From Gillisia sp. Hel_I_86 (GTDB taxonomy: Bacteria > Bacteroidota > Bacteroidia > Flavobacteriales > Flavobacteriaceae): 64,000 nt of DNA. The stretch is from positions 1,860,001 through 1,924,000 of the forward strand of contig NZ_VISE01000001.1 in the NCBI RefSeq assembly GCF_007827275.1, in the 5' to 3' direction. How positions within the stretch are numbered: position 1 is the stretch's first letter; every line of letters starts with the position of its first letter. A program made the translations under genes and the position numbers. The notes under the pieces were generated by a model. It saw nothing but the letters and a program-made list of their open reading frames with translations. It did not search any database and had not been told where the DNA came from. This document shows, piece after piece, positions 8,792 to 24,068 of the stretch.

Positions 8792-8920
8792 TATGCTTGT
8801 CTTTTTACTTTTTTCTATTATCTCCATTTGGATAAGATTTTAAATCGTTAATGAACTCTATTGAGCTCTACTATTATTTGCAATGAATTGGCAAAGTTAG
8901 ATGCAATGTTTACTTTTGAC

Positions 8921-8962
8921 AAGTATGTACTTATTTGTATGCTACATACCAAAAAGTATGTA
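8921..8962. promoter_or_regulatory. Candidate HxlR operator, MDR/HxlR intergenic region
   Basis: Direct repeats AAGTATGTA at 8,921-8,929 and 8,954-8,962 flank an inverted repeat GTATG-CTA-CATAC at 8,937-8,949. All lie between the divergent MDR and HxlR genes, where MarR/HxlR redox regulators such as YodB and HypR normally bind. The assignment is inferred from symmetry and position. Confidence 0.55.
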
Positions 8963-8996
8963 TTACTGATTTTTAGATAATTAAAACCTAATAAAA

Positions 8997-9341
8997 GTGA
9001 AGAAAAAAGAAAAAGAATGTCCAGATGTTCCTACTTGCTCTGTTGATTATGCATTTAAACGTATCGGTGGAAAGTATAAGGGTAGGATCTTATGGTATTT
9101 GCACGAACATAAAATCCTACGATACGGAGAATTGGGCAGGACAGTGCCAGATATTACCACCAAAATGCTGACTCAAACACTTCGGGAATTGGAAAACGAC
9201 AATTTAGTCGACCGAAAAGTATATCACCAAGTACCGCCCAAAGTGGAATATTCCTTGACAGAGGTCGGTAAGGAGTTGATTCCATTTATCAGTTACCTAA
9301 AAGAATGGGGAGATAAACAAATTCAAAAAACCAACTCTTAA
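8997..9341 (+). CDS. HxlR-family redox-type regulator (1 of 3)
   Basis: A 114-residue winged-helix regulator of the HxlR/MarR class (FKRIGGKYKGRILWYL, then ITTKMLTQTLRELENDNLV and the wing VPPKVEYSLTEVGKEL). Cys8 and Cys14 precede the DNA-binding core, the position of the redox-sensing Cys in YodB/HypR/QorR-like proteins. The start codon is GTG; no ATG lies upstream in frame at a sensible distance. It is divergent from the MDR oxidoreductase and probably represses it and itself. The roughly 200 bases downstream, before the next gene, contain nothing I recognise. Confidence 0.85.
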   Translation: MKKKEKECPDVPTCSVDYAFKRIGGKYKGRILWYLHEHKILRYGELGRTVPDITTKMLTQTLRELENDNLVDRKVYHQVPPKVEYSLTEVGKELIPFISYLKEWGDKQIQKTNS

Positions 9342-9541
9342 AATATCCTAATCACAGTTAAGGGAACAGCATTAAAAAGTTTAAAAAACAAGGGCTTTAC
9401 ACTAGAGCTGGACCTTTAGAATACGAATCTTCTATAATTCTTATTCGGATTGATGAAGCCGCTATACTTATTGACGTTATTTCAATTTCTTTATGGACGT
9501 TGTAAAGCGATATTAGAAAAAAGATTTAGTTACACTTTTAA

Positions 9542-10318
9542 TTATAAGTCAATTGCTGCTAGGTCCATTTCCATTCGCTGTTTTTCTTCATCGGTATTCA
9601 TCTTTTTGAAACTAAACTTTGGAGCTATTCGAGACAGCAGTTTACCCAACTTTGACATTCCTATTACTATTTCATCTTGACCATTCACCAGACCTTTAAA
9701 CGCCTTTTGAGCGAAAAGTTCAGAAGTCATTAAGGATATATTTTTTCCTTTGTTCATTTGCGTATCAACCGCAGGAGGAATTATCTCTACTACACGGATC
9801 GATTTTTTTTGAAGGTTGAACCTTAAGCCTTGTGTTATAGCTCTTAGTGCTGTTTTACTTGCACTATAGGCCGATGATTGTGCCGATGGTATAAAGACAT
9901 AGCCCGTGGTAACATTTACAATAATAGCGTCAACATTTTTCTCTAAAACAGGCATTAATTCCTGGATCAAGGCCATTGGTGCCACTAAATTTGTCGTTAG
10001 TTGAGATTCCAAAATAGGGATATATTTGGGGTCCATAATATCTGTAATACTATAAATTCCTGCATTATTGACCAGAACATTTAGTTTAGGAAAATGATTC
10101 GCAATTTCTGTCTTCAAGGCTTTCCTCCCTTCTTTGGATGAAACATCCGCGACAATGGTATGTAACAAGGGAACTTTTTCTTGGGCTTTATCAAGGGTGG
10201 CCTTTGTCCTTCCACAGATGATTACTTCGTTTCCTTTATTTAAAAAAATTTCGGCCATGGCCAGACCAATTCCGGTACCACCTCCTGTTATAAGTACCGT
10301 ATTTCCATTTTGTTTCAT
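9542..10318 (-). CDS. Short-chain dehydrogenase/reductase (DltE-like SDR)
   Basis: A classical SDR of 258 residues. It has the cofactor loop TGGGTGIGLAMAE, NNAG (VLVNNAGIYS) and the active-site SAYSASKTAL (YxxxK). The start at 10,318 (MKQNGNTVLITGG) is chosen because the upstream 22 codons would run into the operator-like palindrome shared with the divergent HxlR gene. Its substrate cannot be read from the sequence. The divergent arrangement suggests control by the HxlR protein at 10,449. Confidence 0.87.
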   Translation of the reverse strand: MKQNGNTVLITGGGTGIGLAMAEIFLNKGNEVIICGRTKATLDKAQEKVPLLHTIVADVSSKEGRKALKTEIANHFPKLNVLVNNAGIYSITDIMDPKYIPILESQLTTNLVAPMALIQELMPVLEKNVDAIIVNVTTGYVFIPSAQSSAYSASKTALRAITQGLRFNLQKKSIRVVEIIPPAVDTQMNKGKNISLMTSELFAQKAFKGLVNGQDEIVIGMSKLGKLLSRIAPKFSFKKMNTDEEKQRMEMDLAAIDL

Positions 10319-10383
10319 TCTTAATATTTTAGAATTCAGTTGCAAAATTAATCCTAACACTATACTTTTGCAAGTAGTTACCA

Positions 10384-10405
10384 TTTAGTATATTAATATA
10401 CTAAA
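10384..10405. promoter_or_regulatory. 22-bp perfect palindrome, candidate HxlR operator
   Basis: A perfect 22-base palindrome (half-site TTTAGTATATT, centred between 10,394 and 10,395) lies between the divergent SDR and HxlR genes. Looser flanking symmetry (AGTTACC / GGTTACT) extends it. Position and symmetry suggest binding of the adjacent HxlR dimer. Confidence 0.65.
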
Positions 10406-10448
10406 GGTTACTTTAACTATAAACCAATGCTTTAATAAAATATAATAA

Positions 10449-10790
10449 ATGAAAAATGATGAAAATTGTGAGTTTGACTTATCGGATTTACATTTTATTC
10501 TAAAAGTTTTAGGTGGTAAATGGAAACTTCACATCCTGACAAGCTTATACATTGGCAAAAAAAGATTTAAAGAGCTGGAACGCGATGTGGTCGGCATTTC
10601 ACCGAAGATGCTGATCAAGGAACTAAAGGACCTTGAAGCTATTGGTATTGTAAACCGGCAAACCTTCAATACCGTCCCTATTACCGTTGAATATAGTTTA
10701 ACAGATGACGGACTTACTTTAAAACCAGTTTTGGATCACATGAGAGAATGGGCAAGTGAGTTTAAACAAAAAGTAAACTCAGTAGGATAA
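10449..10790 (+). CDS. HxlR-family regulator (2 of 3)
   Basis: A 113-residue HxlR winged-helix protein (ILKVLGGKWKLHILTSL, RFKELERDVVGISPKMLIKEL, wing VPITVEYSLTDDG). A single N-terminal Cys7 is placed where family members sense electrophiles by S-alkylation or disulfide formation. It is divergent from the SDR at 9,542-10,318 across a 22-bp palindrome and converges on the third HxlR gene. Confidence 0.87.
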   Translation: MKNDENCEFDLSDLHFILKVLGGKWKLHILTSLYIGKKRFKELERDVVGISPKMLIKELKDLEAIGIVNRQTFNTVPITVEYSLTDDGLTLKPVLDHMREWASEFKQKVNSVG

Positions 10791-10822
10791 ATTTTATAGA
10801 AAAGCCTTTAAAATTTAAAAAT

Positions 10823-11191
10823 CTAAATAGTTTTCCCTTTTACTTTGTTCCTATGATTTTCGCCCCAAGAACTTAATTCCTCCAAAACATTTTTAAGTGA
10901 ATGACTATACTCGGTAGCTTCATAAATAATACTTACCGGGGTGGTTGGATATACGTTCCGTTTAATTAGAAAATTCAACTCCAAATCCTTCAGTTCGTTG
11001 GCCAATACCTTGGGAGATATTCCTTTGACTTCCTTTTGAAGTTCATTAAACCGCTTTGAGGAATGCATTAAACAAAGCACCAATGGCAATTTCCATTTGC
11101 CATTCAAAACAAACATTGCATCGAATACATTTTTAAGTGACCCTGAACATTCTTCTTTAGTAGGAAGTGTTTTTTCTTCATGAATTTTCAT
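10823..11191 (-). CDS. HxlR-family regulator (3 of 3)
   Basis: A 122-residue HxlR regulator (AMFVLNGKWKLPLVLCLM, GISPKVLANELKDLE, wing TPVSIIYEATEYS). The start at 11,191 (MKIHEEKTLPTKEEC) is preferred. The longer open frame to 11,314 would run through the palindromic operator and overlap the divergent azoreductase. The conserved N-terminal Cys is Cys15 of this start. It is divergent from the azoreductase gene, which it probably represses. Confidence 0.85.
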   Translation of the reverse strand: MKIHEEKTLPTKEECSGSLKNVFDAMFVLNGKWKLPLVLCLMHSSKRFNELQKEVKGISPKVLANELKDLELNFLIKRNVYPTTPVSIIYEATEYSHSLKNVLEELSSWGENHRNKVKGKTI

Positions 11192-11215
11192 ACCGGTAAA
11201 GATAAAAACTTTCCT

Positions 11216-11235
11216 AAAGGAAAGCGCTTTCCTTT
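11216..11235. promoter_or_regulatory. 20-bp perfect palindrome, candidate HxlR/azoR operator
   Basis: AAAGGAAAGCGCTTTCCTTT is a perfect palindrome between the divergent HxlR and azoreductase genes. An additional half-site CTTTCCT at 11,209-11,215 pairs with AGGAAAG to form a second overlapping dyad. A TAgtTTTG element at 11,270-11,277 resembles the Bacteroidetes -7 box for the azoreductase promoter. Confidence 0.65.
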
Positions 11236-11304
11236 GGGTAACTACTATCTTTTGCATAGCTATTCCGGCTAGTTTTGTGTTTTCAAAGTTTAAAAAAATA
11301 CAAA

Positions 11305-11916
11305 ATGGATTCAAAACGCATCTTACAAATCAACTCCAGTATCATGGGAGATAAATCGTATAGCAGAAAATTAGGAAATGCTATCGTTGAAAAAATAAAA
11401 GTGAAATACCCTAATAGTACGGTTGAACAATTGGATTTAGTGGAAAGCAATATCCCGCACTTAACACCAGAAACTTTACAGGCAATGTTTACCCCAGAAG
11501 AGCATCAAACCGATGAAGTAAGGCAAGCACTTCAATTGTCGGATACATTGTTGAAACAATTATTTGAAAGTGATATACTAGTAATAGGTGCACCACTTAT
11601 CAACCTAACCATTCATTCTTCCCTTAAAGCATGGATAGACCATATAACACGTCGTGGAATTACATTTGGCTATAATGAAGCTGGTATTCCAATTGGATTC
11701 ATCACAGGAAAAAAAGTATATGTAGCCATGAGTTCCGGAGGTATCTATACCGATGAACAAGGCAAATCGAATGATTTTGTAGCACCTTACCTAAAATCAT
11801 TCTTAGGCTTTTTGGGTATGACCGACCTTACAGTGGTTAGAGCTGAAGGACTTCACATTCCCGTTATACAGGATACGGCATTGGAGAAAGGAGTTCATAG
11901 TATTGTAATTAATTAA
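11305..11916 (+). CDS. azoR: FMN-dependent NADH-azoreductase / quinone reductase
   Basis: A 203-residue flavodoxin-fold enzyme of the AzoR family. It has the N-terminal FMN loop (RILQINSSIMGDKSYSRKLG), the LVIGAPLINLTIHSSLKAWIDH segment and the SSGGIYTDEQG segment near the flavin. AzoR enzymes reduce quinones and azo compounds with two electrons from NADH. The start at 11,305 is chosen over an upstream ATG at 11,275 because the family begins a few residues before the beta strand. The gene is divergent from an HxlR regulator, the same layout as azoR1/yodB in Bacillus. Confidence 0.9.
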   Translation: MDSKRILQINSSIMGDKSYSRKLGNAIVEKIKVKYPNSTVEQLDLVESNIPHLTPETLQAMFTPEEHQTDEVRQALQLSDTLLKQLFESDILVIGAPLINLTIHSSLKAWIDHITRRGITFGYNEAGIPIGFITGKKVYVAMSSGGIYTDEQGKSNDFVAPYLKSFLGFLGMTDLTVVRAEGLHIPVIQDTALEKGVHSIVIN

Positions 11917-11940
11917 TATACTACTCTCGTCATTTGCTGA

Positions 11941-11969
11941 AAAAGCCATGAGTATTTCATGGCTTTTTT
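11941..11969 (+). terminator. Rho-independent terminator of azoR
   Basis: An 11-base perfect stem (AAAAGCCATGA / TCATGGCTTTT) with a 5-base loop followed by further T residues lies 24 bases after the azoreductase stop. Confidence 0.85.
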
Positions 11970-11990
11970 CATTATCCCCATTCCTGTTAT

Positions 11991-12030
11991 AAAATCCCTC
12001 ATTTAGGTTATATCCTCTTGTATCCGCTTA
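11991..12030 (+). promoter_or_regulatory. Candidate AraC-type operator upstream of second NmrA gene
   Basis: AAAATCCCTCATTT at 11,991-12,004 is followed by GGTTAT and a tandem TATCCTCTTG / TATCCGCTTA. AAAATCCCTTATTT occurs in the promoter of the SDR gene at 31,539 (positions 31,597-31,610, minus strand). A looser version with GGTTAT lies about 75 bases before the first NmrA gene. All three genes are followed by related AraC regulators, which suggests a shared site. Confidence 0.4.
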
Positions 12031-12063
12031 ATGATATTTGCATCATAAAAATAAAATATAAGT

Positions 12064-12966
12064 ATGAATATAGTAGTTACAGGTTCCTTAGGGAACATCA
12101 GCAAGCCACTCGCTACAGAATTGGTCCAAAAAGGTCATAACGTTACCGTCATCAGCAGCAAGGACGAAAGACAACGAGCCATCGAAGACATCGGGGCTAA
12201 AGCTGCCATTGGTTCTATCCAAGATGCCGAATTTCTTATAAACACTTTCAAAGGAGCAGATGTGGTTTACCTCATGGAAGCTTGGGAAGGTATCGGTAGC
12301 ATCTTTGATAAGGATGTGGATTTTGTTGCAGGATTTCATCGTATTGGCAACAATTACAAACAAGCCGTAGAAGTGTCAGGTGTGAAAAATATTGTCCATC
12401 TGAGCAGTGTAGGAGCTCACAGCAAAACAGGTTATGGCACGCTTACTGCCCATCACGATGTAGAAAACATTTTGAAACAACTGCCTGATGATGTTGCTAT
12501 CAAGTTTATGCGACCTGTAGGTTTTTATACCAATCTATACAGGTCTGTTCAAACGATCAAAGACAAAGCTGCTTTCATTTCCAATCACGGTGGCGACGTA
12601 AAGGAACCATTGGTTTCACCATTGGATATAGCTGCTGCCATTGTGGAAGAAATGGAATCTCCTTTTGAAGGAAGAAAAGTACGCTATATAGCCAGTGATG
12701 ATGTTTCGCCAAATGAAATTGCAAAAATTATAGGTGAGGCTATCGGAAAACCAGACTTACAATGGATAATGATTCCAGATGAACAGATGCTCGAAGGCAT
12801 GTTGGGCATGGGCGTAAATACAAAAATTGCAGAAGGTATGGTAGAAATGCAGGCCAGTCAGCGAAACGGAAAGCTATACGAAGATTTTTATGAAAACAAG
12901 CCTACTTATGGTAAGGTGAAATTCACTGATTTTGCCAAAGAATTTGCACTGGCATATAACAAATAA
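12064..12966 (+). CDS. NmrA-type NAD(P)H-binding oxidoreductase, second copy
   Basis: A 300-residue paralogue of the 5,851-6,750 product, beginning with the same dinucleotide-binding loop (VTGSLGNISKPLA) and colinear to the end. It is first in a three-gene unit with an SDR (11 bases downstream) and an AraC regulator. The two NmrA proteins differ at many positions, so this is an old duplication or separate acquisition, not a recent copy. Likely role: electrophile reduction or NAD(P)H sensing. Confidence 0.82.
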   Translation: MNIVVTGSLGNISKPLATELVQKGHNVTVISSKDERQRAIEDIGAKAAIGSIQDAEFLINTFKGADVVYLMEAWEGIGSIFDKDVDFVAGFHRIGNNYKQAVEVSGVKNIVHLSSVGAHSKTGYGTLTAHHDVENILKQLPDDVAIKFMRPVGFYTNLYRSVQTIKDKAAFISNHGGDVKEPLVSPLDIAAAIVEEMESPFEGRKVRYIASDDVSPNEIAKIIGEAIGKPDLQWIMIPDEQMLEGMLGMGVNTKIAEGMVEMQASQRNGKLYEDFYENKPTYGKVKFTDFAKEFALAYNK

Positions 12967-12977
12967 AAGAACGAAAA

Positions 12978-13715
12978 ATGAAGAAAGCATTAATAACAGG
13001 AGCCAACAAAAGTATTGGCTATGAAACCGCACGACAACTATTACAAAAAGGATATTACATTTTCTTGGGCAGTCGCAATCTGGAAAACGGAACAGCAGCT
13101 GTCGAAAAACTGAAAGCCGAAGGACTAACGAATGTTGAAGTCGTACAATTGGATGTTACCAATGACGATTCAGTAAAATCGGCAAGAATCGAAATTGGTA
13201 AAAAAACGGAAGTCCTGGATGTGCTCATCAACAATGCAGGTATCAATGGCGGTTGGCCCCAAGCTGCTTTAGAGGCAAGCATTGACCAGTTCAGACAAGT
13301 ATTCGAAACCAATGTATATGGTGTGGCAAGGGTTACACAGGCATTCATTGATATGTTGCGAAAATCGCCGCAACCACGAATAGTAAATGTGTCATCGAGT
13401 GGCTGTTCGCTAACTTTACATTGCGATCCTACTTGGAAATACTATTCACACAAAGCGGCTGTTTATCCGGCATCAAAAGCCGCTCTCAATATGTACACTA
13501 TCAATTTGGCATACGAATTAAGGGATACGCCATTTAAAGTAAATGCGGTATGTCCGGGATTTGTGGCAACGGACTTCAATGGCCATCGTGGAACGGGAAC
13601 CGTTCAAGAAGCAGGTACCCGAATTGCCAAATATGCAATGATTGGCGCGGATGGACCCACAGGAAAGTTTATCAGCGAAGAACACAATCCGGAAACTGGC
13701 GAATGCCCTTGGTAA
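12978..13715 (+). CDS. Carbonyl-reductase-like short-chain dehydrogenase
   Basis: A classical SDR of 245 residues: TGANKSIGYETARQL cofactor loop, LINNAGINGG, catalytic SSSG and YPASKAAL (YxxxK), and PG motif NAVCPGFVATDFNGHRG. The CBR1-like layout (TGANKxIG at the start, NAGI) points to a carbonyl reductase. It lies between an NmrA gene and an AraC gene on the same strand and is very probably cotranscribed with both. Confidence 0.88.
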   Translation: MKKALITGANKSIGYETARQLLQKGYYIFLGSRNLENGTAAVEKLKAEGLTNVEVVQLDVTNDDSVKSARIEIGKKTEVLDVLINNAGINGGWPQAALEASIDQFRQVFETNVYGVARVTQAFIDMLRKSPQPRIVNVSSSGCSLTLHCDPTWKYYSHKAAVYPASKAALNMYTINLAYELRDTPFKVNAVCPGFVATDFNGHRGTGTVQEAGTRIAKYAMIGADGPTGKFISEEHNPETGECPW

Positions 13716-13747
13716 AAATATTGCTTTTGAATTTTGTAAATTTGAGA

Positions 13748-14662
13748 ATGAAAAAGGAAGAGAATACACTTTATAAATTTGAATCATTAACGGACTTTCA
13801 TCGGGTGTTTGGATTACCAAAACCTATGCACCCGCTGATTAGTTTTGTAGATATAACGGACTTAGAAACTCTACCCTATGATTTTCCGAAATCTATGGCA
13901 ATGAACTTCTATAAGATTTCCTATAAAACGGGGATGTGTGGGCAAGCAAAATACGGACAAAGCTATTATGATTTTGGAGAAGGTGGCTTGGTGCTTACCT
14001 CGCCAAACCAAGTATTTGAAAGTCCCAGTGGCAATCATGCAAGTGGTCGTTTATTACTGGTCCACCCCGATTTCCTTTTAACCTATCCATTGGCAAAGAA
14101 GATTAAGGAATACGGTTTCTTTTCCTATGCCACTAATGAGGCACTGCATTTATCAGATAATGAAAGAAAAACAATCTTATCCATTTTTGAAATCATCGAC
14201 GACGAATTAAAAAGTAGGATTGATGATTTTAGTCAGGATGTCATGATAGCGCAACTTGAACTATTATTAAATTACTGTAACCGTTTCTACAAACGACAAT
14301 TCATAACTCGTAAGGTCGTAAACAACGATTTATTACAAAAAATAGAAGAAATTTTAGACAACTATTTTAATGACTCCACACCATTGAAGGAAGGAATTCC
14401 AACCGTGCAATTGCTATCTGAAAAATTAAATATTTCCCCCAGTTATTTAAGTGATATGTTAAGAACGCTTACCGGTCTAAGTGCACAGCACCATATACAC
14501 AATAAACTTGTGGAAAAGGCAAAAGAAATGCTCTCAATTTCCGAATTGACAGTTAATGAAATAGCCTACCAATTGGGTTTTGAATATCCACAAAGTTTTA
14601 GCCGATTGTTTAAAAGTAAAAGTGGGGTAAGTCCGATGGAGTTTAGGGCTAGTTTTAATTGA
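13748..14662 (+). CDS. AraC-family transcriptional regulator (copy 2 of 3)
   Basis: A 304-residue regulator with the same N-terminal domain as the products at 6,754 and 29,787 (FESLTDFHRVFGLPKPMHPLI). The C-terminal AraC DNA-binding domain has LSEKLNISPSYLSDMLRTLTG and YQLGFEYPQSFSRLFKSKSG. The start at 13,748 is chosen because a longer open frame to 13,550 lies inside the SDR gene and encodes unrelated sequence. It is the last gene of the NmrA-SDR-AraC unit. Confidence 0.9.
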   Translation: MKKEENTLYKFESLTDFHRVFGLPKPMHPLISFVDITDLETLPYDFPKSMAMNFYKISYKTGMCGQAKYGQSYYDFGEGGLVLTSPNQVFESPSGNHASGRLLLVHPDFLLTYPLAKKIKEYGFFSYATNEALHLSDNERKTILSIFEIIDDELKSRIDDFSQDVMIAQLELLLNYCNRFYKRQFITRKVVNNDLLQKIEEILDNYFNDSTPLKEGIPTVQLLSEKLNISPSYLSDMLRTLTGLSAQHHIHNKLVEKAKEMLSISELTVNEIAYQLGFEYPQSFSRLFKSKSGVSPMEFRASFN

Positions 14663-14880: not shown

Positions 14881-17160
14881 TTAATTATAATAACTTTTGG
14901 GGTAGAGTTCATCGTAAACTCTTTTAATAGATTTTTTAAAAATATTGATTCTTTCATCTTCGTGGCCCTCAAGTTCATTAATAATTTCCGCGTAATGACT
15001 TTTAACTAACTTTAGTTTACGAATAGAAAGAGCATATAAAAACTCTATAATTGCTTCTCCCTGATACTCATTTATATGTTTGATAAAGGTTTTTATCAAA
15101 GTTAGCATATCGTTAGAGTGTTGCTGACTATAAGAGTAGTTAAGTTCTTCTTCCCTTGCGGCCCTGAGTATTGACGCCTGAATGATTCCATCATTAAATC
15201 TGTTGAAAATAAAAGGATCCAAAATATTCTTCACGAAACTAGTTTGATATAGACCGTCTTCTTTATTGTTTCGCATATTATTTAATACACAAGATATAGT
15301 GAAATAGACATCGGATTGAGTAACATTTTCATGATAATTATTATCATTGAAGAAAGCAGAATTTTTTCTAATTTTAAGTGGTTGTTTGTTTATATCAGTA
15401 TAGAATATGGATTCACTTCCTCCTCTTGTTTGAATATTTGCAAATTCACTTATTATCTTCAGTCTCTCTTCAATAAATTTTGGCGGTACGCCTGAATCTT
15501 GTTGAATCCATTGCAAATGCTCAATCTCTTTTTCCCAAGGTGTGTCAGAGCTTGAATTATCACATTGAATAGCTTCTATCTCAACAAAGGAACTATTTTC
15601 TTTACCATAAAGACCATATTTCACATTTGTCTTCAACTCACTATATTTAGACGAGTCACTTATTCTATTGATGCCAATGAAATATATTAACCTTAAGCTC
15701 TCATAGTTTCTGAAAAAGCGACTGAGGTAAAGAAGGTTTTTTCCATTTGAAATACAAGATCCAACGATTAAAATTGAACCAACCTCATTCTCCTCAATTA
15801 ACGATTCTGTCAATTCCGACTGATTAAAAATTAAAATCTCATCTCGAGTATCAGGTTTAATGCGGTTTCGAATATATTCAGATAGCTTAAATGATCCTTT
15901 GTCATTAAGATGCACAATATATTTTAGCGAAGCTGGAACATATTGCATTATATAGGCATCTAACTTTTTTTTATGGCTTTCGAAATGACTCTTTCCAATG
16001 TCATCGATGACATTCTCATAATCTATATACAAATTATATTTTTTTCTAGCTGCCGATTCTTCACTATATGAAACCTTTAAGGATGTTCTTTCTGTTTCCC
16101 CATTGTATTTAAATATTTCTACAAAATCTTTTATTGATTTAGTAATATATTTTGAGGCCGAAATATTTCTTGTATTTATTATTGGCTCATCCAAACTAAA
16201 TGAGTCCCCTTGAATGCTGATAGGAGTAGAATGATTTTTACAGTAAACACACTCCTCATTTCTTCTTGATTGATGGTATAGATCTATACCATAATTTAGT
16301 TTCTTATTTCTTTCCAAATTACATAACACACGTTCTAAAGCCACTTTAGAATTTTTGTCTATTGGCAAATAGAACAGAGTACAAATTTCTTCAGATCGAA
16401 TTTCTGGGTGAGTACTCTGTAAATAGTTGATTAAACCTCCTGATGTAGATGCGGAGATGAGAAATATTGCATTGTCATAGAAAATTGATTGTTTGTTATA
16501 AAGTCCATCATAGGATTTAAAGGATTCAATATTGATTTCTTTATCAGCGTGAAATCTTTTTACAAATTTGGTAATTGAGTATGCTACAACATTTATAGAT
16601 AACGTATCACAATAGATATTTTCAAACTCTATATTTTGGAAAAGATGAAGTGTATTTATAGCGATAAAATCTATCTCAGATTTATGCACTAAAACATTTG
16701 CGGTTCTCAAAAATTTAGTGGAGTGCTTGCCAGATGGAAAAACAAAATGGTGAGATATCCCATTACTTTCTATTAGACCTCCATTGCCAATAAAGATTTC
16801 TGCTAAACCTTGATTTAGAATTTCCTTTTTGTTTTTCTCTAAAAAACGTTTCTTTTTGAAATTAAATGATTTCCCGTCATAGGGAACGAAAAAGATATTT
16901 TTACGTAAGGAAGTTTCCTCCACTTTGGGTATGCTTTTGAAAATGGTATCAATATTCTCAAGTACTAAACCTTTTATGTTTTCTTCCTTCTTACAATGTA
17001 CAAATACCAATGCTGCTGTTTGATGATGAAATTTAAAATAATTAGTCAATTCATTTTTGAGCGTACTAAAATTAAAATTGGTGTCAGGGTTAAATATTAC
17101 TGTAACATTCTTAAAGTTGTCATCTTCAATTTTTGCGTTGTATATATAGTATTTTCCCAT
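14881..17160 (-). CDS. Unrecognised protein with two PRTase-like segments
   Basis: A 759-residue protein I cannot name. FPSGKHSTKF (residues 141-150) resembles the N-terminal SGxxS loop of orotate phosphoribosyltransferase-type folds. Two hydrophobic strands followed by Ser/Gly loops, FLISASTSGGLINYL (233-247) and ILIVGSCISNGKNLLYL (463-479), sit where the PRPP-binding loop (usually DDxxTTG) would be, but the acidic residues are missing. A CxxC (Cys304, Cys307) is followed by STPISIQGDSF. The C-terminal 200 residues are helical. It ends 3 bases before the GHKL ATPase gene begins its 3' end, so the two genes form one transcript with the ATPase first. No function is assigned; the PRTase reading is an inference from motifs. 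Confidence 0.5.
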   Translation of the reverse strand: MGKYYIYNAKIEDDNFKNVTVIFNPDTNFNFSTLKNELTNYFKFHHQTAALVFVHCKKEENIKGLVLENIDTIFKSIPKVEETSLRKNIFFVPYDGKSFNFKKKRFLEKNKKEILNQGLAEIFIGNGGLIESNGISHHFVFPSGKHSTKFLRTANVLVHKSEIDFIAINTLHLFQNIEFENIYCDTLSINVVAYSITKFVKRFHADKEINIESFKSYDGLYNKQSIFYDNAIFLISASTSGGLINYLQSTHPEIRSEEICTLFYLPIDKNSKVALERVLCNLERNKKLNYGIDLYHQSRRNEECVYCKNHSTPISIQGDSFSLDEPIINTRNISASKYITKSIKDFVEIFKYNGETERTSLKVSYSEESAARKKYNLYIDYENVIDDIGKSHFESHKKKLDAYIMQYVPASLKYIVHLNDKGSFKLSEYIRNRIKPDTRDEILIFNQSELTESLIEENEVGSILIVGSCISNGKNLLYLSRFFRNYESLRLIYFIGINRISDSSKYSELKTNVKYGLYGKENSSFVEIEAIQCDNSSSDTPWEKEIEHLQWIQQDSGVPPKFIEERLKIISEFANIQTRGGSESIFYTDINKQPLKIRKNSAFFNDNNYHENVTQSDVYFTISCVLNNMRNNKEDGLYQTSFVKNILDPFIFNRFNDGIIQASILRAAREEELNYSYSQQHSNDMLTLIKTFIKHINEYQGEAIIEFLYALSIRKLKLVKSHYAEIINELEGHEDERINIFKKSIKRVYDELYPKSYYN

Positions 17161-17163
17161 TAT

Positions 17164-18333
17164 TTAACTTTTAAAAGGGTATAAAATACTTATAAATGAC
17201 CCTTGTGACTTGATGGTATTCTGACCGTCGAGAAGATTATTGTTCCAATTTTGCAATACCAGATTGTCTAAATTGTTTTTGTCTACAGGTTCGTATTTAT
17301 TTTTTATAAGGTCTCGATATAGGCAGTATCTATCTGTGGTTATCCTTAAAAACCCTTTATCATCTAGAATATTTAAAATCCTGTCAAGCCCTTTACCCTT
17401 TTTCGTCTTCATATTGGTTTTTGAGGAAGTTTGATTTTTGATAAGACATTTTTTTATAATATCGATATCGCTAACTCGATCTTCTTTCCCAAACTTTTCT
17501 ACGAACCCAATACCAGAATCGAAAACTAGAATTTCTAGATAATAGATTTGTTGATTGTCATTTGTTGATTGTTGAAGTAGCTTAGGATGAGTAAAAAATT
17601 GCTCTAATGGAGTATCCTTGAACTCTTTTTCAATCTTTTCATCTTTACCGATATGAAACCTTATATAAGCACCCCTTATGCTTGGAGATAAATCGACATT
17701 ATTAGTATCGGTTCTTCCCCATTCCCATGTATTTTTCACAAGTTCAAATATAATGGCACCTATATCTTCAATAATAGGGTCTATCTCATTTAAGTTTTTT
17801 CTATTGAATGTGAGGATATAATCCTTTAGAATTTTTTTTACTTTTTTTACTATCTTATCCTCATCATCGTTAAACCCCTCAGGCCCCTCTAATAGCTTTA
17901 TTAAACCTTTATTTTTGGGAAGGTGATCTGTATTTACTAAAATATACTTGTTCCCTTTAAATTTGGAAAGCGAGTTCATTCTAAGAAAAAACTCATTTTG
18001 TTTTACCCTTAGCTTTTCCTTTATATCTATTCCATTTTTATCGATAAAGCTGGAAATATTCCATAACAAAGATATAATTGGATAACTATACTCTTGATCA
18101 TAAAACTTATCCAACTCACTTTCTTCTACATCTATTTTGACAAACTTTATATTGCTTTTGCTATTTAGATAAAATACAAGCTTTAAAATATCTGAAAGTA
18201 AACCGAATCTGTACTTAGTCAAATGTCCAGGCAAAATCAATGTAGTATCAACTAGGTGTTGCTCAATTATTTTATTATAGAGTTGCATCAGTTTTGCTGG
18301 TGTGGCAATTGTCGATATTTTAAATTCTGTCAT
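17164..18333 (-). CDS. GHKL-type ATPase of unknown function
   Basis: A 389-residue protein with a GHKL (Bergerat) ATP-binding domain: N-box IFELVKNTWEWG (Glu197, Asn201), G1 box FDSGIGF (Asp272-Gly276) and G2 box KKGKGLDRIL (Gly313-Gly315). Histidine-kinase H-box and MutL/gyrase transducer motifs are not apparent. The N-terminal 180 residues (TTLILPGHLTKYRFGLLSDIL) have a mixed alpha/beta pattern reminiscent of STAS-like modules. It is coupled to the PRTase-like gene downstream (3-base gap) and lies 5 bases after the AlbA-domain gene, inside a block that includes a type III R-M system. Confidence 0.65.
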   Translation of the reverse strand: MTEFKISTIATPAKLMQLYNKIIEQHLVDTTLILPGHLTKYRFGLLSDILKLVFYLNSKSNIKFVKIDVEESELDKFYDQEYSYPIISLLWNISSFIDKNGIDIKEKLRVKQNEFFLRMNSLSKFKGNKYILVNTDHLPKNKGLIKLLEGPEGFNDDEDKIVKKVKKILKDYILTFNRKNLNEIDPIIEDIGAIIFELVKNTWEWGRTDTNNVDLSPSIRGAYIRFHIGKDEKIEKEFKDTPLEQFFTHPKLLQQSTNDNQQIYYLEILVFDSGIGFVEKFGKEDRVSDIDIIKKCLIKNQTSSKTNMKTKKGKGLDRILNILDDKGFLRITTDRYCLYRDLIKNKYEPVDKNNLDNLVLQNWNNNLLDGQNTIKSQGSFISILYPFKS

Positions 18334-18338
18334 TAGCC

Positions 18339-19709
18339 TTATTTATTTTCTTTGAAATTAATTTCCCAATAACCCTGCGTACCACCTTGCCGCTTTAAAA
18401 ATCCTTTATTTTTAATAGCTGTGATATGTTTACCAACAGCAGATTCATTGATGCTTAAAGCTTCCGCTATTGCAGTATAGGTAATAGAAGTATTACCTGC
18501 AATAAGTTTAAGAACTTCTTTTTGTCTATTAGTTAGAGTGTCAGCTGCATCTATTGCACCACCTGTTACACCACCTGTTGCACCACCTATTACACCACCT
18601 TCTTTATCATCTGCCTTAAAAGTAGATTCATCAGCAACTTCTTTGGCAATAAAAGTCATCCTTAAGAAATTATCTGAAAAACTAAAACTCTCTTTCCCGT
18701 AATGTTCCAAAATACGAGGGATGCCAGAACCCAATTGCTCTACGAGTTCTAAGTCCTTGAAAATACGCATCAGTTCCTTGTTTCGTGGTACTGAAAAGCC
18801 CTCAAAAAATTCTTGTTTGCTCAATCCTTCTGGCAGACCACCTGCAGATGTGATTTCAATTCTGTCGGCAAAGATTTCAAACTTTGGGGGAATCTCATTG
18901 GTGTAGTCGTTATGCACAAATGAGTTAATAATCGCTTCGCGTAAGGCGATGGGATGCCAAAGATTAACTTGCTCCCTTTCTTTTGCTGTTATTTTTGTAC
19001 TGGTTCTGTTCTCTACGGCAATTTTATCTATTACTTGCTTTGTGGACTTGACCAAGCATTCGTGTCCGTACTCGTTACTTTCTATAAGATCTGTTCGGGT
19101 TTTGCCGGAATACTTGGCCACCTTTATAGAAGTATTATTCTTATCTGCCAAAAGATAACCAGCATAGTTGAAAGCACCATCTTCGGTAAGTAGTTCCAAG
19201 TTCTTTGCAAATGCTTTACCAAGGGAATAACCCGATTCCTCATAATAGATTTTCAACTGACTAAAGCTTAAATCCTGCCGACCCGCTTTAATCTTACTGA
19301 TGGAATTTCGGGTACGTTTAGCGAAGAGCTCGTCAATCATTTTTTGTGGCATCGGTTCAGCTGCTGAACCCAAACGAATAAAACAACCCCTTTCGCTCAT
19401 CCCGTATTTTTTAAGATGATAGGGCTTTTCGGGACCGCTCGCCACAATGATTTTCAGGATAATCTTGCCTTCTCTTTCCTCGCTCACAATATCAAACAAA
19501 CCCAATGCAGAAGGACGGATATTGTTCTTCAATCTATCCTTAATTTTCAATTGGTCACCATCTGCATCTGCCAAGCCATACGTGTTTCCGTCTTTATCAA
19601 TACCAATGTATAGAATACCTCCTTCACGGTAGTTCAGAAAAGCAATAACCTCTTTTTCAAGCCCATCGGACAGTTCTCTTTTGTATTCTATACGGTTTGT
19701 TTCCGTCAT
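18339..19709 (-). CDS. AlbA_2/Schlafen-domain ATP-binding regulator (RecG-like DUF)
   Basis: A 456-residue protein with an N-terminal AlbA_2 (Schlafen-type) domain (IEYKRELSDGLEKEVIAFLN, GGILYIGIDKDGNTYG), a middle HATPase_c_4-like region (ALREAIINSFVHNDY near residues 255-270) and a C-terminal winged helix (ITYTAIAEALSINESAVGKHI). A GGVI/GGAT/GGVT/GGAI linker separates the last two. Such proteins are common beside restriction systems and other mobile-element genes and are often annotated as transcriptional regulators or RecG-related. It lies 12 bases after the Res gene on the same strand. The biochemical role is not known. Confidence 0.8.
   Translation of the reverse strand: MTETNRIEYKRELSDGLEKEVIAFLNYREGGILYIGIDKDGNTYGLADADGDQLKIKDRLKNNIRPSALGLFDIVSEEREGKIILKIIVASGPEKPYHLKKYGMSERGCFIRLGSAAEPMPQKMIDELFAKRTRNSISKIKAGRQDLSFSQLKIYYEESGYSLGKAFAKNLELLTEDGAFNYAGYLLADKNNTSIKVAKYSGKTRTDLIESNEYGHECLVKSTKQVIDKIAVENRTSTKITAKEREQVNLWHPIALREAIINSFVHNDYTNEIPPKFEIFADRIEITSAGGLPEGLSKQEFFEGFSVPRNKELMRIFKDLELVEQLGSGIPRILEHYGKESFSFSDNFLRMTFIAKEVADESTFKADDKEGGVIGGATGGVTGGAIDAADTLTNRQKEVLKLIAGNTSITYTAIAEALSINESAVGKHITAIKNKGFLKRQGGTQGYWEINFKENK
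18553..18600 (-). repeat. Four in-frame 12-bp tandem repeats
   Basis: Four 12-base units, each GGTGGT plus two variable codons, encode the GGxx linker of the AlbA-domain protein. Unit gain or loss would keep the frame and change linker length. Confidence 0.85.
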
Positions 19710-19721
19710 TGTTTTTGTTTT

Positions 19722-22361
19722 TTACATTCCGCTAATTAATTCTTTTGCTTTGTCCAACGTAAATGCTCCCTTAACTTCTTTCTTGTCAAAAACCATAAAA
19801 TATGAAAAATCGTGTCCAGCTTGTCTTTCCCATTCATTTCCGAGTCTGCATTTTCCTTCGCTGTCAGAACCGTCCAAATGGTCACCTTTCGTTTCAATCA
19901 ATATTGTTTTTCCAGATTTCGTTCTCAAAATAAAGTCAGGATAATGATTGGCTTTAAATCCGTTAATGTAAAACCCTTTTCCTCTTTCTAAATTTCTATG
20001 CCAAAACACAATATTTGAAGAAGTTCCGATTTCCATTATCACTTTTTGCTCAAAATTATTCATTGTTCCCTCTCTTTCATACAATGAATTTCCAATTGAA
20101 GAGCCAATATTTCCAGGAACAATTTCCTTTCCTAATTTCCAGTTTTCTTTTGCAGTTATACGTTTTGATTTAATCAAATCCATAAATCGGGTTTCTGCAT
20201 AACTGTCTGACAGTTGTCTGATTTTAGCTTTTATTTTATCAGTGTAACTCCATTTCCTAACCAAAATATCTCGCATTTGTTCTGCGTTCATTCCTTTTAA
20301 GATTCTACCAACATAGACTTTTATTTCTTGATCAGGAATTGGATACATATTTCCAATAATTTGCATTATTTGGTGCGTAATATCACTTATTTGAGCATCT
20401 TTTGGTTTGGCCAAAATGTATTCCGCAATTGGGTCTTTTACTTGACTTTCCTCAATCTTTACCCAATCAGGTGTGTAATTATCCTTCACTGTTTCTGTCA
20501 AATCAACTTTGTATAAATCAGATGAGATTTGGTCAAAGTCTATTTTTATATCTTCATCTGAAAGTTTAAAGTCTTTTAATAAAGATTCTCGGTTTAACAA
20601 TTCTTCATCTGTTCCAAAGATGTCACTCGCTGTTACTTTTAGAAAAAATTGAGGAAAATCTATTTTTTCAATAATTTCTTTGTTTGCTTCTTTTACTCGA
20701 TAGCGTTTTACTTTATCTCCCATTTCTTGAAAAATAGTTGAGTCAACAGGTTGTTTTTCTTGTTCCTGTATTTGCTGTTCTAATTCTTTGTTTTGTTCTT
20801 CTGCCATTGTTTCTATTTCCACAATTACAGAAGTATCTTCAATGTCATCTTCTTTTGCATTTGGGTCAAAAGAAATTCGCTTTTTATCAATTGTTTCTTC
20901 TTCCGCTTCTTTTTGTTGTTCTGGAAACAGAAAGGACTCAACAGGATTTACAACTTCTGTTTGTTTTTCTTCTTCTGTCATATTATCTGAAACTCTGTGT
21001 TCATTTCCACTAAATCCAGAGGCTTTTAATCCTTCAACGATGCTTTGTAGAGTTTCATTGAATTTTGCCGAAGCTGTTAAAACATAAGAAAGATTTAATT
21101 GAAATGCTTTATGCTTTTGAACATAAGGTTGACGTAACACACGACCTAAAATTTGCTCAACATCTACTGCACTTGATCTGTCAGCCAATGAGGCTAAAAT
21201 ATATGCAAAAGGACAATCCCAACCTTCTTTCAAAGCGTTGATCGTAATGATGTAACGAACTTCGCAATCCTTACTTTGTAAATTTGCTATACCTTTAAGT
21301 TCGTCAATGTTGGCAGTTTTTATCTTTATTTGATTTTCCGGAATGCCTAAACCTAATAGTTGTTCTTTTAATTTTTCAAAAGTTGTATTATCATCTTTAG
21401 TTTTTGGTTGAGCTTGAAACAATACAATTGGTCTAATGTATTTTCCGCCATCTTCTTCTTGCTTTTTGGCTAAATTTTCCAATTTCCGTTGTAGATGCAA
21501 AGCATTGTTAATGACTTCTGTTTTATCGTGATTGCTGTAAACGATAACAGGAAGTTTAACCATATGTTCCTTTTTTAATTCTATTGCAGGAACTAAACTC
21601 ACAATATTACTATTGTCTTTTGGTGTTGCTGTTAAATCTAAAATGAATGAAGGATTTAAGTTTTTTAGCATATCTACGCTCAAATCACTTTCTGCATTAT
21701 GGCTTTCGTCAACTACTAAAACAGGATGTAAACTTCTAATTACGTTGATTAACGCTGTATCGTCAACATCTGTTAGAAGGTGATTTCTGTTTGCATATTG
21801 TGGAACGAAAGACTCCAACTGTCCGTTTTCTTGATATACTTTTCTGTCTTCTTTGTTTTTTGCTCTTAAACTGGCAAAACTCAACACAAAAATGCTCAAT
21901 TGTTCTTTTACAACTGTTGGGTTAAAATTTGAACCTTGTAGCAAATCTTCTTTTTGGTAAATCTCAACTTTATGATTAAAAAGTGCATTTAATTTTTGAC
22001 GATAAGGATGTTCGGGATTTGACAAAGCGCTTACGGTTTGTTGCAATAAATTACTCCAAGGAACTAACCAGATTACTGCTTTAGTTTTGCTCGTGTCATA
22101 AGCTGAAAAAATGGAATGCAAAGCATTTACAGCAATAAAGGTTTTTCCGCCAGCAGTTGGTACTTTTATACAAACATGTGCTGATTTTGGAATGTTATTT
22201 TTGTAAGGTTGCATTCCTGTATTATCCAAAGGATTATATGGTCCAATTTTATCTTCCCAATATTGATTGAATGCAGTAGATACATTTTTATGCTCTTGAA
22301 CATATTCCAAATATTCTTCAAGATTTTCTATTACTTTTTGTTGATAGCTTTTTAATTCCAT
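19722..22361 (-). CDS. res: Type III restriction enzyme, Res subunit
   Basis: An 879-residue superfamily 2 helicase-nuclease. Walker A PTAGGKT is at residues 68-74; it is followed by a DEAH-type box (VVDESHNAES), motif III (LDLTATPKD) and motif VI (QILGRVLRQPYV). A C-terminal PD-(D/E)XK nuclease is formed by PDFIL (Asp809) and IETKG (Glu823, Lys825). It translocates on DNA and cleaves unmodified sites when in complex with the Mod subunit, whose gene ends 3 bases upstream. All catalytic motifs are intact, so the enzyme is probably active. Confidence 0.92.
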   Translation of the reverse strand: MELKSYQQKVIENLEEYLEYVQEHKNVSTAFNQYWEDKIGPYNPLDNTGMQPYKNNIPKSAHVCIKVPTAGGKTFIAVNALHSIFSAYDTSKTKAVIWLVPWSNLLQQTVSALSNPEHPYRQKLNALFNHKVEIYQKEDLLQGSNFNPTVVKEQLSIFVLSFASLRAKNKEDRKVYQENGQLESFVPQYANRNHLLTDVDDTALINVIRSLHPVLVVDESHNAESDLSVDMLKNLNPSFILDLTATPKDNSNIVSLVPAIELKKEHMVKLPVIVYSNHDKTEVINNALHLQRKLENLAKKQEEDGGKYIRPIVLFQAQPKTKDDNTTFEKLKEQLLGLGIPENQIKIKTANIDELKGIANLQSKDCEVRYIITINALKEGWDCPFAYILASLADRSSAVDVEQILGRVLRQPYVQKHKAFQLNLSYVLTASAKFNETLQSIVEGLKASGFSGNEHRVSDNMTEEEKQTEVVNPVESFLFPEQQKEAEEETIDKKRISFDPNAKEDDIEDTSVIVEIETMAEEQNKELEQQIQEQEKQPVDSTIFQEMGDKVKRYRVKEANKEIIEKIDFPQFFLKVTASDIFGTDEELLNRESLLKDFKLSDEDIKIDFDQISSDLYKVDLTETVKDNYTPDWVKIEESQVKDPIAEYILAKPKDAQISDITHQIMQIIGNMYPIPDQEIKVYVGRILKGMNAEQMRDILVRKWSYTDKIKAKIRQLSDSYAETRFMDLIKSKRITAKENWKLGKEIVPGNIGSSIGNSLYEREGTMNNFEQKVIMEIGTSSNIVFWHRNLERGKGFYINGFKANHYPDFILRTKSGKTILIETKGDHLDGSDSEGKCRLGNEWERQAGHDFSYFMVFDKKEVKGAFTLDKAKELISGM

Positions 22362-22364
22362 AAT

Positions 22365-24068
22365 CTAAAATCTTGTAATGTCTCTAGGTATTTTTTTGAA
22401 AATGATGTTATTTTTTGACATAAATTCTTTTGGCAACAAGCAGTTATCTGCATAAATAACAAATTGCTCGCCTTTGGTTTTTATGAGTTCCAAAGCATCA
22501 TAATCTAAGGTGGTTAAGCGGTCTTTTTCGTAAATGAAGTAGTACGCTGATTCGTCTTTTTTTCCTAAAAAATAAGGTTCTTTGTTTGGTTCAGTAAAAG
22601 AAGTTCGGGTTTCTGAAAACCAAATGTACTCTCTGATTTTCGCCAAGCCAACTTTCTCATTTAGGTTTTGATTTTCATCAAATAATGGTAAACCGAGTTC
22701 GTAAAAGTCAAATGCTCCGCCTGTTCCTGCTACTGCTTTTGCCCCTGAACCATATCCTTTGGTTACACGTTTTACTCTTTCTGCAGTAATATTATTGGCG
22801 TAATCTTCCATTTCTACCAAAATGAACTTGCGATTACCACCGTCATGTTTATTTAGGTTTAAAACTGCGTGAGCAGTTGTGCCTGAACCTGCAAAAGAGT
22901 CGAGGATGATGCCTTCGGAAGTATCAATAGAATTAAGTAATGTCTCTATAAGACTTACGGGTTTGGGATAGTCGAAACTTTTTTCTGTTAATTCTTTCAA
23001 TGAAACACCACCTACACTCTTGGTACTAATTATTGACCTTAAAAGAAAATCCGAAACTTCATCCAAGTATTTTATTGAACTCGGTTGAGTGTTTTCATCC
23101 TTTGCAAACCAAATTTTACCACATATGAAACTTCCATTATGTAATTCCTTTACATTATCATAATCCAACATTGAATCAAAAGTTTCTTTCGTCCAACGCC
23201 AACCTCTATCTGGGACTTTGCAAGGTTGTTTTGTTTTTGGATGCAGAACATCATAACGAGGACCATATGTTTGACCATTTGGCCAACTTACATTGATTTT
23301 ACCCCAAAGTTTATAGTTCTCATCAAGTGAATTATACAAAGTTATTCCTCGGTCGTAAGCATTCTTTTTGTATAAATTTTTGATTTCAATTTCAGCTTTC
23401 GGAATAGAAGTTTTTTTTCTTTTTAATTGATTGAGAAGCTCGTTTATTTCTGGAATACCTTCTTTTCTTTGGATAAATTTATGCTCTCGGGATTTATTCT
23501 TAACGAAAAGCAGTACATACTCGTGAATGTTTCCAATAAACTTATCATTTTTTGGAACCCTTTTATTCCAAACTAATTGTTCTATGAAATTGCCAACTCC
23601 AAAAATTTCATCCATCATTAATTTAAGATTGGATATCTCATTTTCATCAATCGAAATAAAAATAGCTCCATCATCTGCCAACAATTTATGAAGCAATTTT
23701 AAGCGTGGATACATCATACACAGCCATTTGTCGTGTCGGGTGAGGTCTTCGCCATCTTTACCTACCACTTCGCCCAACCATTTTTTTATTTTGGGGTGGT
23801 TCACGTTGTCATTGTACACCCAACTTTCATTTCCTGTATTATAAGGTGGGTCAATGTAAATGCACTTTATTTTTCCTTCATATTCAGGTAGTAAACTTTT
23901 TAAGGCTTCAAGGTTGTCTCCGTGTATGATTTTATTTCCGCTGTTGGTCGGTTCGTTTTGTTCGCCCTTTTCTGCTGTAAATCCGTATTTGCGTTCCAAA
24001 ACTCTGTATGGCACATCTTGGTGGTGGCTCACCACTTTTTCTTTTCCTATCCAATTGAGTGTTGGCAT
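22365..24068 (-). CDS. mod: Type III DNA adenine methyltransferase, Mod subunit
   Basis: A 567-residue beta-class N6-adenine methyltransferase. The catalytic motif DPPY is at residues 73-76 (IYIDPPYNTGNESW), and the SAM-binding motif FAGSGTTAHAVL lies near residue 400, the order typical of type III Mod proteins. The stretch between holds the target-recognition domain (about 160-370) that sets specificity. It lies 3 bases upstream of res and 1 base after the XRE regulator, so all three form one operon. No simple-sequence tract that would suggest phase variation is visible in the gene. Confidence 0.93.
   Translation of the reverse strand: MPTLNWIGKEKVVSHHQDVPYRVLERKYGFTAEKGEQNEPTNSGNKIIHGDNLEALKSLLPEYEGKIKCIYIDPPYNTGNESWVYNDNVNHPKIKKWLGEVVGKDGEDLTRHDKWLCMMYPRLKLLHKLLADDGAIFISIDENEISNLKLMMDEIFGVGNFIEQLVWNKRVPKNDKFIGNIHEYVLLFVKNKSREHKFIQRKEGIPEINELLNQLKRKKTSIPKAEIEIKNLYKKNAYDRGITLYNSLDENYKLWGKINVSWPNGQTYGPRYDVLHPKTKQPCKVPDRGWRWTKETFDSMLDYDNVKELHNGSFICGKIWFAKDENTQPSSIKYLDEVSDFLLRSIISTKSVGGVSLKELTEKSFDYPKPVSLIETLLNSIDTSEGIILDSFAGSGTTAHAVLNLNKHDGGNRKFILVEMEDYANNITAERVKRVTKGYGSGAKAVAGTGGAFDFYELGLPLFDENQNLNEKVGLAKIREYIWFSETRTSFTEPNKEPYFLGKKDESAYYFIYEKDRLTTLDYDALELIKTKGEQFVIYADNCLLPKEFMSKNNIIFKKIPRDITRF

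Follow-up and report, generated by a model that had tools for sequence, protein, structure and literature searches.

In a 64,000-nucleotide stretch of the genome of Gillisia sp. Hel_I_86 (contig NZ_VISE01000001.1, positions 1,860,001 to 1,924,000; hereafter the window), two adjacent genes encode an ATPase of the GHKL superfamily (gene A, 17164..18333, minus strand, 389 amino acids) and a larger protein (gene B, 14881..17160, minus strand, 759 amino acids), the N-terminal half of which is, by sequence comparison, a degenerate TIGR01367-type orotate phosphoribosyltransferase (OPRTase) without the acidic pair of the active enzymes. An earlier sequence-only reading had described these genes, lying 3 bases apart as open reading frames that span exactly 14881-17160 and 17164-18333 on the minus strand, as a GHKL ATPase with a double phosphoribosyltransferase (PRTase)-like partner, and had suggested that they might constitute an undescribed defence or stress-signalling pair, an interpretation which the present analysis partly supports. 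Three findings are new: B is related to OPRTases but has no acidic pair in any aligned sequence, the two genes are strictly paired, and they have an operon context with restriction-modification (R-M) genes. Below, L-numbers designate the fetched loci of relatives; unprefixed coordinates are those of the window, where all the features of A and B lie on the minus strand.

Whole-protein searches of Pfam, NCBIfam and the PDB with A and B gave no confident domain, and the affinity of B is seen in comparisons of profiles. A slice of B comprising residues ~105-345 (B1; 16126..16848) matched a profile of 29 TIGR01367-type OPRTases with a hhalign score of 37.9 and an E-value of 5.1e-5, at 28% identity over 57 columns, the match covering the part that bears the signature GHF...SG-[KR]-HS. 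This comparison was prompted by a weak NCBIfam match, so it was not blind; the checks on it were a reverse rank test and an NCBIfam scan, both of 61 B proteins. With the OPRTase profile as the query, 29 of the 61 outranked all 400 decoy reading frames, and apart from TIGR01367 (6/61 at E <= 1, best E = 0.0063) no NCBIfam family matched more than a single one. The B protein of the window scores 12.9 bits against TIGR01367, below the cut-off of 150.25, and so falls outside the family as it is formally delimited. Two weak extra matches of the database model for B, PDC-M65B, in the 395 genomes of the phylum that were searched (E = 2.4e-6 and 6.9e-4; L006 and L007) overlap OPRTase-like open reading frames that carry GHFLLTSGRHS and EDVVTTGGS, the second of these places matching TIGR01367 with E = 1.9e-66.

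A forced full-length alignment of B1 with the OPRTases, of which only the first part is confident and the remainder is aligned by position, is colinear: HHFVFPSGKHS stands opposite GHFLLTSGRHS, ISASTSGG aligns with EDVVTTGGS once a gap of one residue is allowed, and the C-x-x-C of B stands opposite the C-terminal C-x-x-C of the OPRTases. The corresponding elements of B are the conserved P-S-G-K-H-S loop (residues 142-147; 16720..16737), which is the counterpart of the OPRTase T-S-G-R-H-S, the counterpart LISASTSGG of the phosphoribosyl pyrophosphate (PRPP) loop (residues 234-242; 16435..16461), and the C-x-x-C itself (residues 304-307; 16240..16251; Cys304 in 72/76 and Cys307 in 73/76 aligned B proteins). 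Both the SGKHS-type loop and the C-x-x-C had been pointed out from the window sequence alone, and both prove to be real as well as conserved. Because the C-x-x-C lies opposite that of the OPRTases, it is probably a part of the OPRTase ancestry.

In PRTases the PRPP loop has a pair of acidic residues, which hold the ribose of PRPP and are visible as ED in the OPRTases that were compared. The earlier reading had noticed two segments of B shaped like PRPP loops that lack this pair, and this holds across the family: in neither loop (LISASTSGG from residue 234 and LIVGSCISNG from residue 464) are positions -6/-5 acidic in any of the aligned B proteins (0/76). At the places of the pair the first loop has Ile/Val/Thr and Ser (Ser236 in 76/76), and its Ser/Thr-x-Gly part is largely kept (Ser240 in 75/76, Gly241 in 71/76). 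The polar residues H138, R152, D185, S216 and S236 are invariant (76/76). In a Spirosoma plasmid (L008:5594-7920) the N-terminal part of B forms a separate frame, which overlaps the rest by 4 bases, and on account of this the N-terminal region may be a separable domain.

Several results speak against the PRTase assignments and have to be set beside the above. The 29 TIGR00336-type OPRTases gave no match to B1 (hhalign E = 0.28), and a profile that mixed both OPRTase types reached only E = 0.019, so that a clear match was obtained with the TIGR01367 type alone. Profile searches of the PDB with whole B, B1 and the following segment, B2, returned no PRTase, and the Pfam PRTase family PF00156 matched a single one of the 61 B proteins (E = 0.063). 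In a rank test of B1 against a set of 505 sequences, which used 450 of 769 decoys, 9/29 PyrE proteins and 11/26 other PRTases were among the top 53, and ranks 1 and 2 were both occupied by decoys. A second PRTase domain and an internal repeat are weak, with B1-B2 matches of E = 0.0068 and 0.044. As for named families of PRTase-like proteins, PRTase-CE (PF24390) was not among the best 25 of 37 Pfam families for the 61 B proteins, the others ranking below E = 0.13.

The case for a second PRTase-like domain in residues 375-580 of B (B2; 15421..16038) is a moderate one, made by rank tests, in which the B2 rows moved up as a group while few of them singly outdid the decoys. With the B2 profile, the first 53 of the 505 ranks took in 26/29 PyrE proteins but just 4/26 other PRTases. 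Slices of B2 rose above the 99th percentile of 300 decoys in 19/76 cases with a mixed PRTase profile and in 4/76 and 7/76 with narrower profiles, and those of the C-terminal domain (B3) in 1/76, 0/76 and 1/76 with the same three profiles, although the slice rows are related and their counts are not independent trials. The second loop, LIVGSCISNGK (residues 464-474; 15739..15771), likewise lacks the acidic pair, the places of which mostly hold Ala/Gly and Ser/Ala/Gly, and its Gly473 is found in 72/76 proteins. Of the double PRTase-like architecture proposed earlier, the first domain stands on good ground, specifically as an OPRTase-like one, and the second only on moderate ground. The C-terminal domain (residues ~575-759; 14884..15438), with the pattern RFNDGIIQAS-LRAA ... 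E706, has eight invariant residues, namely Arg654, Asp657, Ile660, Gln661, Ala662, Leu665, Arg666 and Glu706 (76/76). No credible PDB relative of this domain was found by sequence (best E = 0.041), searches of the PDB with B1, B2 and B3 gave nothing credible, and the sequence gave no credible sign of a nuclease domain.

The product of gene A is, on the evidence of its motifs and profile matches, a GHKL ATPase. The N, G1, G2 and G3 boxes of the superfamily, with the Glu and Asn of the N box, are all present. In all 73 aligned A proteins the N box E-L-x-x-N (residues 197-201; 17731..17745) retains Glu197 and Asn201, the G1 box D-S-G-I-G (residues 272-276; 17506..17520) Asp272, Gly274 and Gly276, and the G2 box G-K-G-L (residues 313-316; 17386..17397) Gly313, Gly315 and Leu316; Gly378 is equally invariant (73/73). 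A profile of 30 histidine-kinase ATPase domains matched the A profile with E = 9.4e-8, aligning the G1 and G2 boxes, and 50/73 single A proteins outranked all of 400 decoys bar two, which are themselves kinase-looking. HATPase_c was the top Pfam family among the A homologues (12/73, best E = 0.0075; the next families 3/73), and the A protein of the window had no Pfam match at E <= 1. The N, G1 and G2 boxes recognised in the sequence-only reading are accordingly borne out, as is its remark that histidine-kinase features are missing: no HisKA/DHp domain was found in the window protein (Pfam, E <= 1), and HisKA was not among the best 25 of 28 Pfam families for the 73 A proteins, the other three ranking below single-member matches of E = 0.23. 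For the N-terminal part of A (~180 residues) a STAS fold was considered and is not supported (E = 0.43), and a PDB search with this part gave nothing credible. The PDB yielded one match for A, to TNF alpha-induced protein 8 (E = 0.0088), which was set aside as a scattered match of helices.

The two genes form a real unit. A profile search of the GTDB species genomes gave 128 relatives of B, the best 80 loci of which, together with two IMG/VR contigs, made up a set of 82. In 79 of these A lies immediately upstream of B, so the pairing is conserved in other genomes; in the remaining three (L036, L075 and L091) B starts 166-310 bases from the end of the contig. The 79 include one locus with a contig-cut A (L047) and two with A split in two frames; in the latter (L045:6696-7927 and L110:5302-6500) B is open, and sequencing error or decay could account for the split. 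In all 77 loci with a single A frame the gap between the genes is between -176 and +11 bases, the longest frames being taken. Strong matches to B (E < 1e-100) and A (E < 1e-60) lie side by side in the same five of the 395 phylum genomes, one being the window's own. Weak extra matches of the A model in L027 and L028 look spurious, judging by their reading frames.

The 76 B proteins placed in a tree come from Bacteroidota, Pseudomonadota, Acidobacteriota, Verrucomicrobiota and Planctomycetota, with a single metagenome bin for each of the last three, and families are mixed in this tree, as with Sphingobacterium within branches of Flavobacteriaceae. Relatives occur in 12 plasmid records, with A upstream of B in the ten that were inspected, and the two IMG/VR contigs carry the pair; it was not found in phage records, nor in E. 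coli genomes in a search with one Pantoea query at the nucleotide level. In one of the IMG/VR contigs (L109:4692-7916) a protein of 1074 amino acids follows B after 10 bases and has weak matches to AAA_22 (E = 6.6e-7) and NPHP3_N (E = 7.1e-6).

The suggestion that the pair is undescribed needs qualification. In PADLOC-DB (2023), version 2.0.0, it is listed as the candidate defence pair PDC-M65A/B, which A and B match nearly end to end and adjacently (A: PDLC04764, E = 6.4e-141, residues 1-388; B: PDLC04765, E = 0, 1014.9 bits, residues 1-750), and for each of the 73 A proteins PDC-M65A is the sole PADLOC model matched at E <= 0.01. The entry carries no description in the copy used. The name PDC-M65 was absent from the literature searched, and no description of the pair appeared in that on PRTases, GHKL proteins and OPRTases in phage defence, both searches lying within a scope that has preprints and most subscription journals outside it. 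The pair is therefore catalogued as a candidate and is otherwise undescribed within the searched literature; to the entry this analysis adds the kinship with OPRTases, the loss of the acidic pair and the operon context with R-M genes. The legends to the figures of the DefensePredictor study name one validated system with a PRTase and one predicted system with a HATPase, and whether either is identical with the pair could not be told from them. A precedent is offered by the next candidate number, PDC-M66, also of two genes (HipA kinase and DUF3037), the proteins of which differ by name from those of PDC-M65. One report later described it as acting alone in phage defence (PMC12548924), and in another DUF3037 and HipA appear as newly validated (PMC13092281). 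Such candidates can therefore be real, and nothing further follows from this for PDC-M65.

Comparison with characterised proteins shows where the pair differs. With the TIGR01367-type OPRTases (PyrE) B has the SG-[KR]-HS part in common, and the PRPP loop and C-x-x-C opposite in the forced alignment, but it lacks the acidic pair and is fused to a second PRTase-like segment and a C-terminal domain. The type III retrons are reported to use PRTase-like effectors in phage defence (PMC12548924), a likeness by description to the PRTase-like domains of B; their partner is a winged-helix protein, whereas that of B is a GHKL ATPase. No reverse transcriptase occurs among the five genes of the window operon described below, where non-coding RNA was not searched for. 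On the side of A the comparison is with VcSduA, a Shedu protein with an N-terminal GHKL ATPase, for which conserved motifs, proposed control of an output domain and an ATPase mutant that abolishes defence are reported (PMC12137116). VcSduA unites the ATPase with a PD-(D/E)xK nuclease in one protein, whereas here the ATPase has a separate PRTase-like partner.

In the window the pair follows three other minus-strand genes, in the order Mod-Res-AlbA-A-B with intergenic gaps of 3, 12, 5 and 3 bases. Mod, a type III methyltransferase (22365..24068; MTase_III, E = 3e-194), comes first; next is the type III restriction subunit Res (19722..22361; PF04851, E = 2.7e-16; REase_III, E = 4.1e-71), and then an AlbA_2/Schlafen-type gene (18339..19709; PF04326, E = 8.5e-17; PF13749, HATPase_c_4, E = 6.9e-16), which has sub-threshold winged-helix matches at its C-terminus and ends 5 bases upstream of A. 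We infer that A and B are the end of a five-gene operon. This call rests on gene spacing, because the promoter-like sites of the region, one of which lies upstream of Mod at 24119-24092, are not strongly above shuffled sequence in number (47 against a shuffle mean of 37.6, standard deviation 5.5), and the sequence after B showed no terminator-like site. Upstream of the operon are a MobB relaxase above its cut-off and a coupling protein that matches MobC in part and below threshold, and at its opposite end the window contains TraG-, TraK-, TraM- and TraN-like genes of the Bacteroidetes conjugative transposon type, each below its curated cut-off. By these matches the pair of the window is carried on a Bacteroidetes conjugative element, and the earlier placing of the genes in a block with AlbA and type III R-M genes on such an element agrees with the domain matches and with the mob and tra genes.

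R-M genes recur beside the pair elsewhere. In 93 loci, counted after the near-duplicates L051, L020, L030 and L095 had been dropped and with close pairs such as L034/L038, L052/L067 and L105/L108 kept, a type I or III R-M gene lies within the fetched flanks in 18, and in 12 it belongs to a same-strand chain with A and B. HsdR occurs in 9/93 loci, whereas ~1% would be expected for flanks of up to 16 kb from the HSDR_N density of a background of 21 genomes, one of them the window's own and the other 20 its relatives (38 matches; ~66 Mb, from summed rounded sizes). Three of the nine HsdR loci (L034, L035 and L038) are related to one another, and the background draws on fewer phyla than the loci do. 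Some of the gene orders are close-knit: in L039 hsdM is followed by two genes, hsdS, A, B and hsdR, and B runs ~33 bases into the longest hsdR frame, in L036 hsdR begins 3 bases after B, and L058 has the order HsdR-HsdM-HsdS-A-B. Genes of other defence systems are also seen beside the pair, LmuB of Lamassu in L008 and Qat genes in L016. Two findings count on the other side. By the seed set of R-M proteins that was used for these counts, 75/93 loci have no R-M gene, and R-M is therefore a recurrent companion of the pair and not a required partner. In the PADLOC tally of nearest neighbours (106 proteins from 60/90 loci) defence families are among the matches listed, but defence-family matches also figure among those listed for the 69 proteins of genes at distances above 5 kb, so that the neighbourhood signal comes in part from the general context of the island. 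As these tallies give no clean enrichment figure, the claim of context rests on the R-M counts.

On the basis of this genomic context, the pair is probably an uncharacterised anti-virus system. As to how it would work, we tentatively favour, at somewhat less than even chances, a self-contained, mobile anti-parasite module of two proteins that acts as an ATP-gated sensor and effector; ligand binding, an A-B complex, its gating, an output and defence are the steps we infer. B1 would have been derived from an OPRTase, and in B, where both PRTase-like domains lack the acidic pair, one or two non-catalytic pockets may bind a nucleotide or ribose-phosphate; such binding would proceed without classical PRPP chemistry, because the acidic pair is gone and the Ser/Thr-Gly loops, which would suit a 5'-phosphate, remain. 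A, with its intact N-box Glu, would dimerise with ATP and restrain or load B. A change of ligand, brought about either by infection or when a neighbouring R-M enzyme cleaves DNA, would then flip the A-B complex, and the invariant R/D/Q/R/E cluster in the C-terminal domain of B might be the output. A metabolite of the pyrimidine pathway is a first guess for the ligand, and that it is a guess tells against the scheme. Infected Lactococcus is reported to down-regulate the biosynthesis of uridine monophosphate (UMP) strongly and early in infection (PMC10986495). This shut-down makes a pyrimidine-pathway signal plausible, yet it is no evidence for the A-B system. The fully specified version, in which a degenerate OPRTase gated by a GHKL ATPase senses orotate, orotidine monophosphate, UMP or PRPP and triggers growth arrest or DNA interference, we consider unlikely.

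The strongest of the competing explanations, and one we hold to be unlikely, is that B is an active enzyme of changed chemistry, for instance a nucleotide hydrolase, a transferase or a modifying effector, which A switches on by means of ATP and which uses either the invariant Ser/His/Asp/Arg set or the C-terminal R-D-Q-R-E cluster. That ten polar or charged residues (H138, R152, D185, S216, S236, R654, D657, Q661, R666 and E706) are found in 76/76 proteins goes beyond what a pseudo-domain of structural role only would seem to need; the C-terminal domain, however, matches no known catalytic fold, and the canonical acidic pair for PRPP is gone.

Distinctly improbable is the proposal that B acts as a dominant-negative OPRTase, inserting into or titrating the PyrE of the host and so starving the phage of UMP. 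The active sites of OPRTases are shared across the dimer, and both the OPRTase-like character of B1 and the down-regulation of UMP biosynthesis reported for infected Lactococcus (PMC10986495) are in keeping with it. However, a TIGR01367-type protein exceeds the cut-off in just one of the five pair-bearing genomes; because the other four, the window's included, have matches only below it, the ancestral type is mostly not the resident enzyme in this set of five. This proposal also leaves the second PRTase-like domain and the ATPase unexplained.

Just as improbable is a role for the pair as an accessory or guard of R-M, controlling restriction or, once R-M is inhibited, setting off a further line of defence in the manner of PrrC and its type I enzyme. 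The inferred five-gene operon of the window, the gene orders of L039, with B overlapping hsdR, and of L058, and the excess of HsdR over its background speak for it, but most loci (the 75 of 93 above) have no R-M gene nearby by the seeds, and the variation of R-M type between I and III argues against a fixed physical partner. Moreover, the relatedness of L034, L035 and L038 means that the nine HsdR loci are not independent, and the background comprises relatives of the window only.

In three Rhizobiaceae plasmids (L010:3475-4413, L011:3468-4406 and L013:3528-4466) thyX, which encodes the FAD-dependent thymidylate synthase, lies directly upstream of the pair on the same strand, and in L013 dgt follows closely on B, on the opposite strand; the thyX neighbour may indicate a link to nucleotide metabolism or merely shared lineage. 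Least probable of all is that the pair regulates nucleotide pools in metabolism or stress, is merely carried along by mobile elements and has no role in defence, since, for all that it has these thyX and dgt neighbours and sits at some loci, such as two on Pantoea plasmids, among ordinary genes, it is patchily distributed (strong matches in 5/395 phylum genomes), is carried on plasmids and a conjugative element, and is repeatedly found beside R-M, Lamassu and Qat genes.

The sensor-effector module we favour gains in interest from the tracing of one domain of B to OPRTases, as this turns a protein of obscure function into a testable proposal for a non-catalytic sensor under the control of an ATPase, with E197 and N201 of A and S236, C304 and R654/D657 of B as the residues singled out. 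If true, it would link pyrimidine metabolism, which one study describes as shut down early in a phage infection (PMC10986495), to a mobile immune module. A pyrimidine-synthesis enzyme turned immune sensor would be a new principle of sensing, one that moves between elements, often with R-M.

Some further genes were noted near the pair. In an Agrobacterium plasmid (L010:11469-13719) bacterial ubiquitin-like conjugation genes, for one ThiF-family adenylyltransferase and one multiubiquitin-domain protein, are found at ~4 kb from the pair. In the window the region between the tra genes and B (7787-14662) holds a quinone-oxidoreductase-like gene (7787-8827) and, judged from the sequence only, an SDR-like gene (12978-13715) and a gene for an AraC-type regulator (13550-14662), the frames of the last two overlapping.

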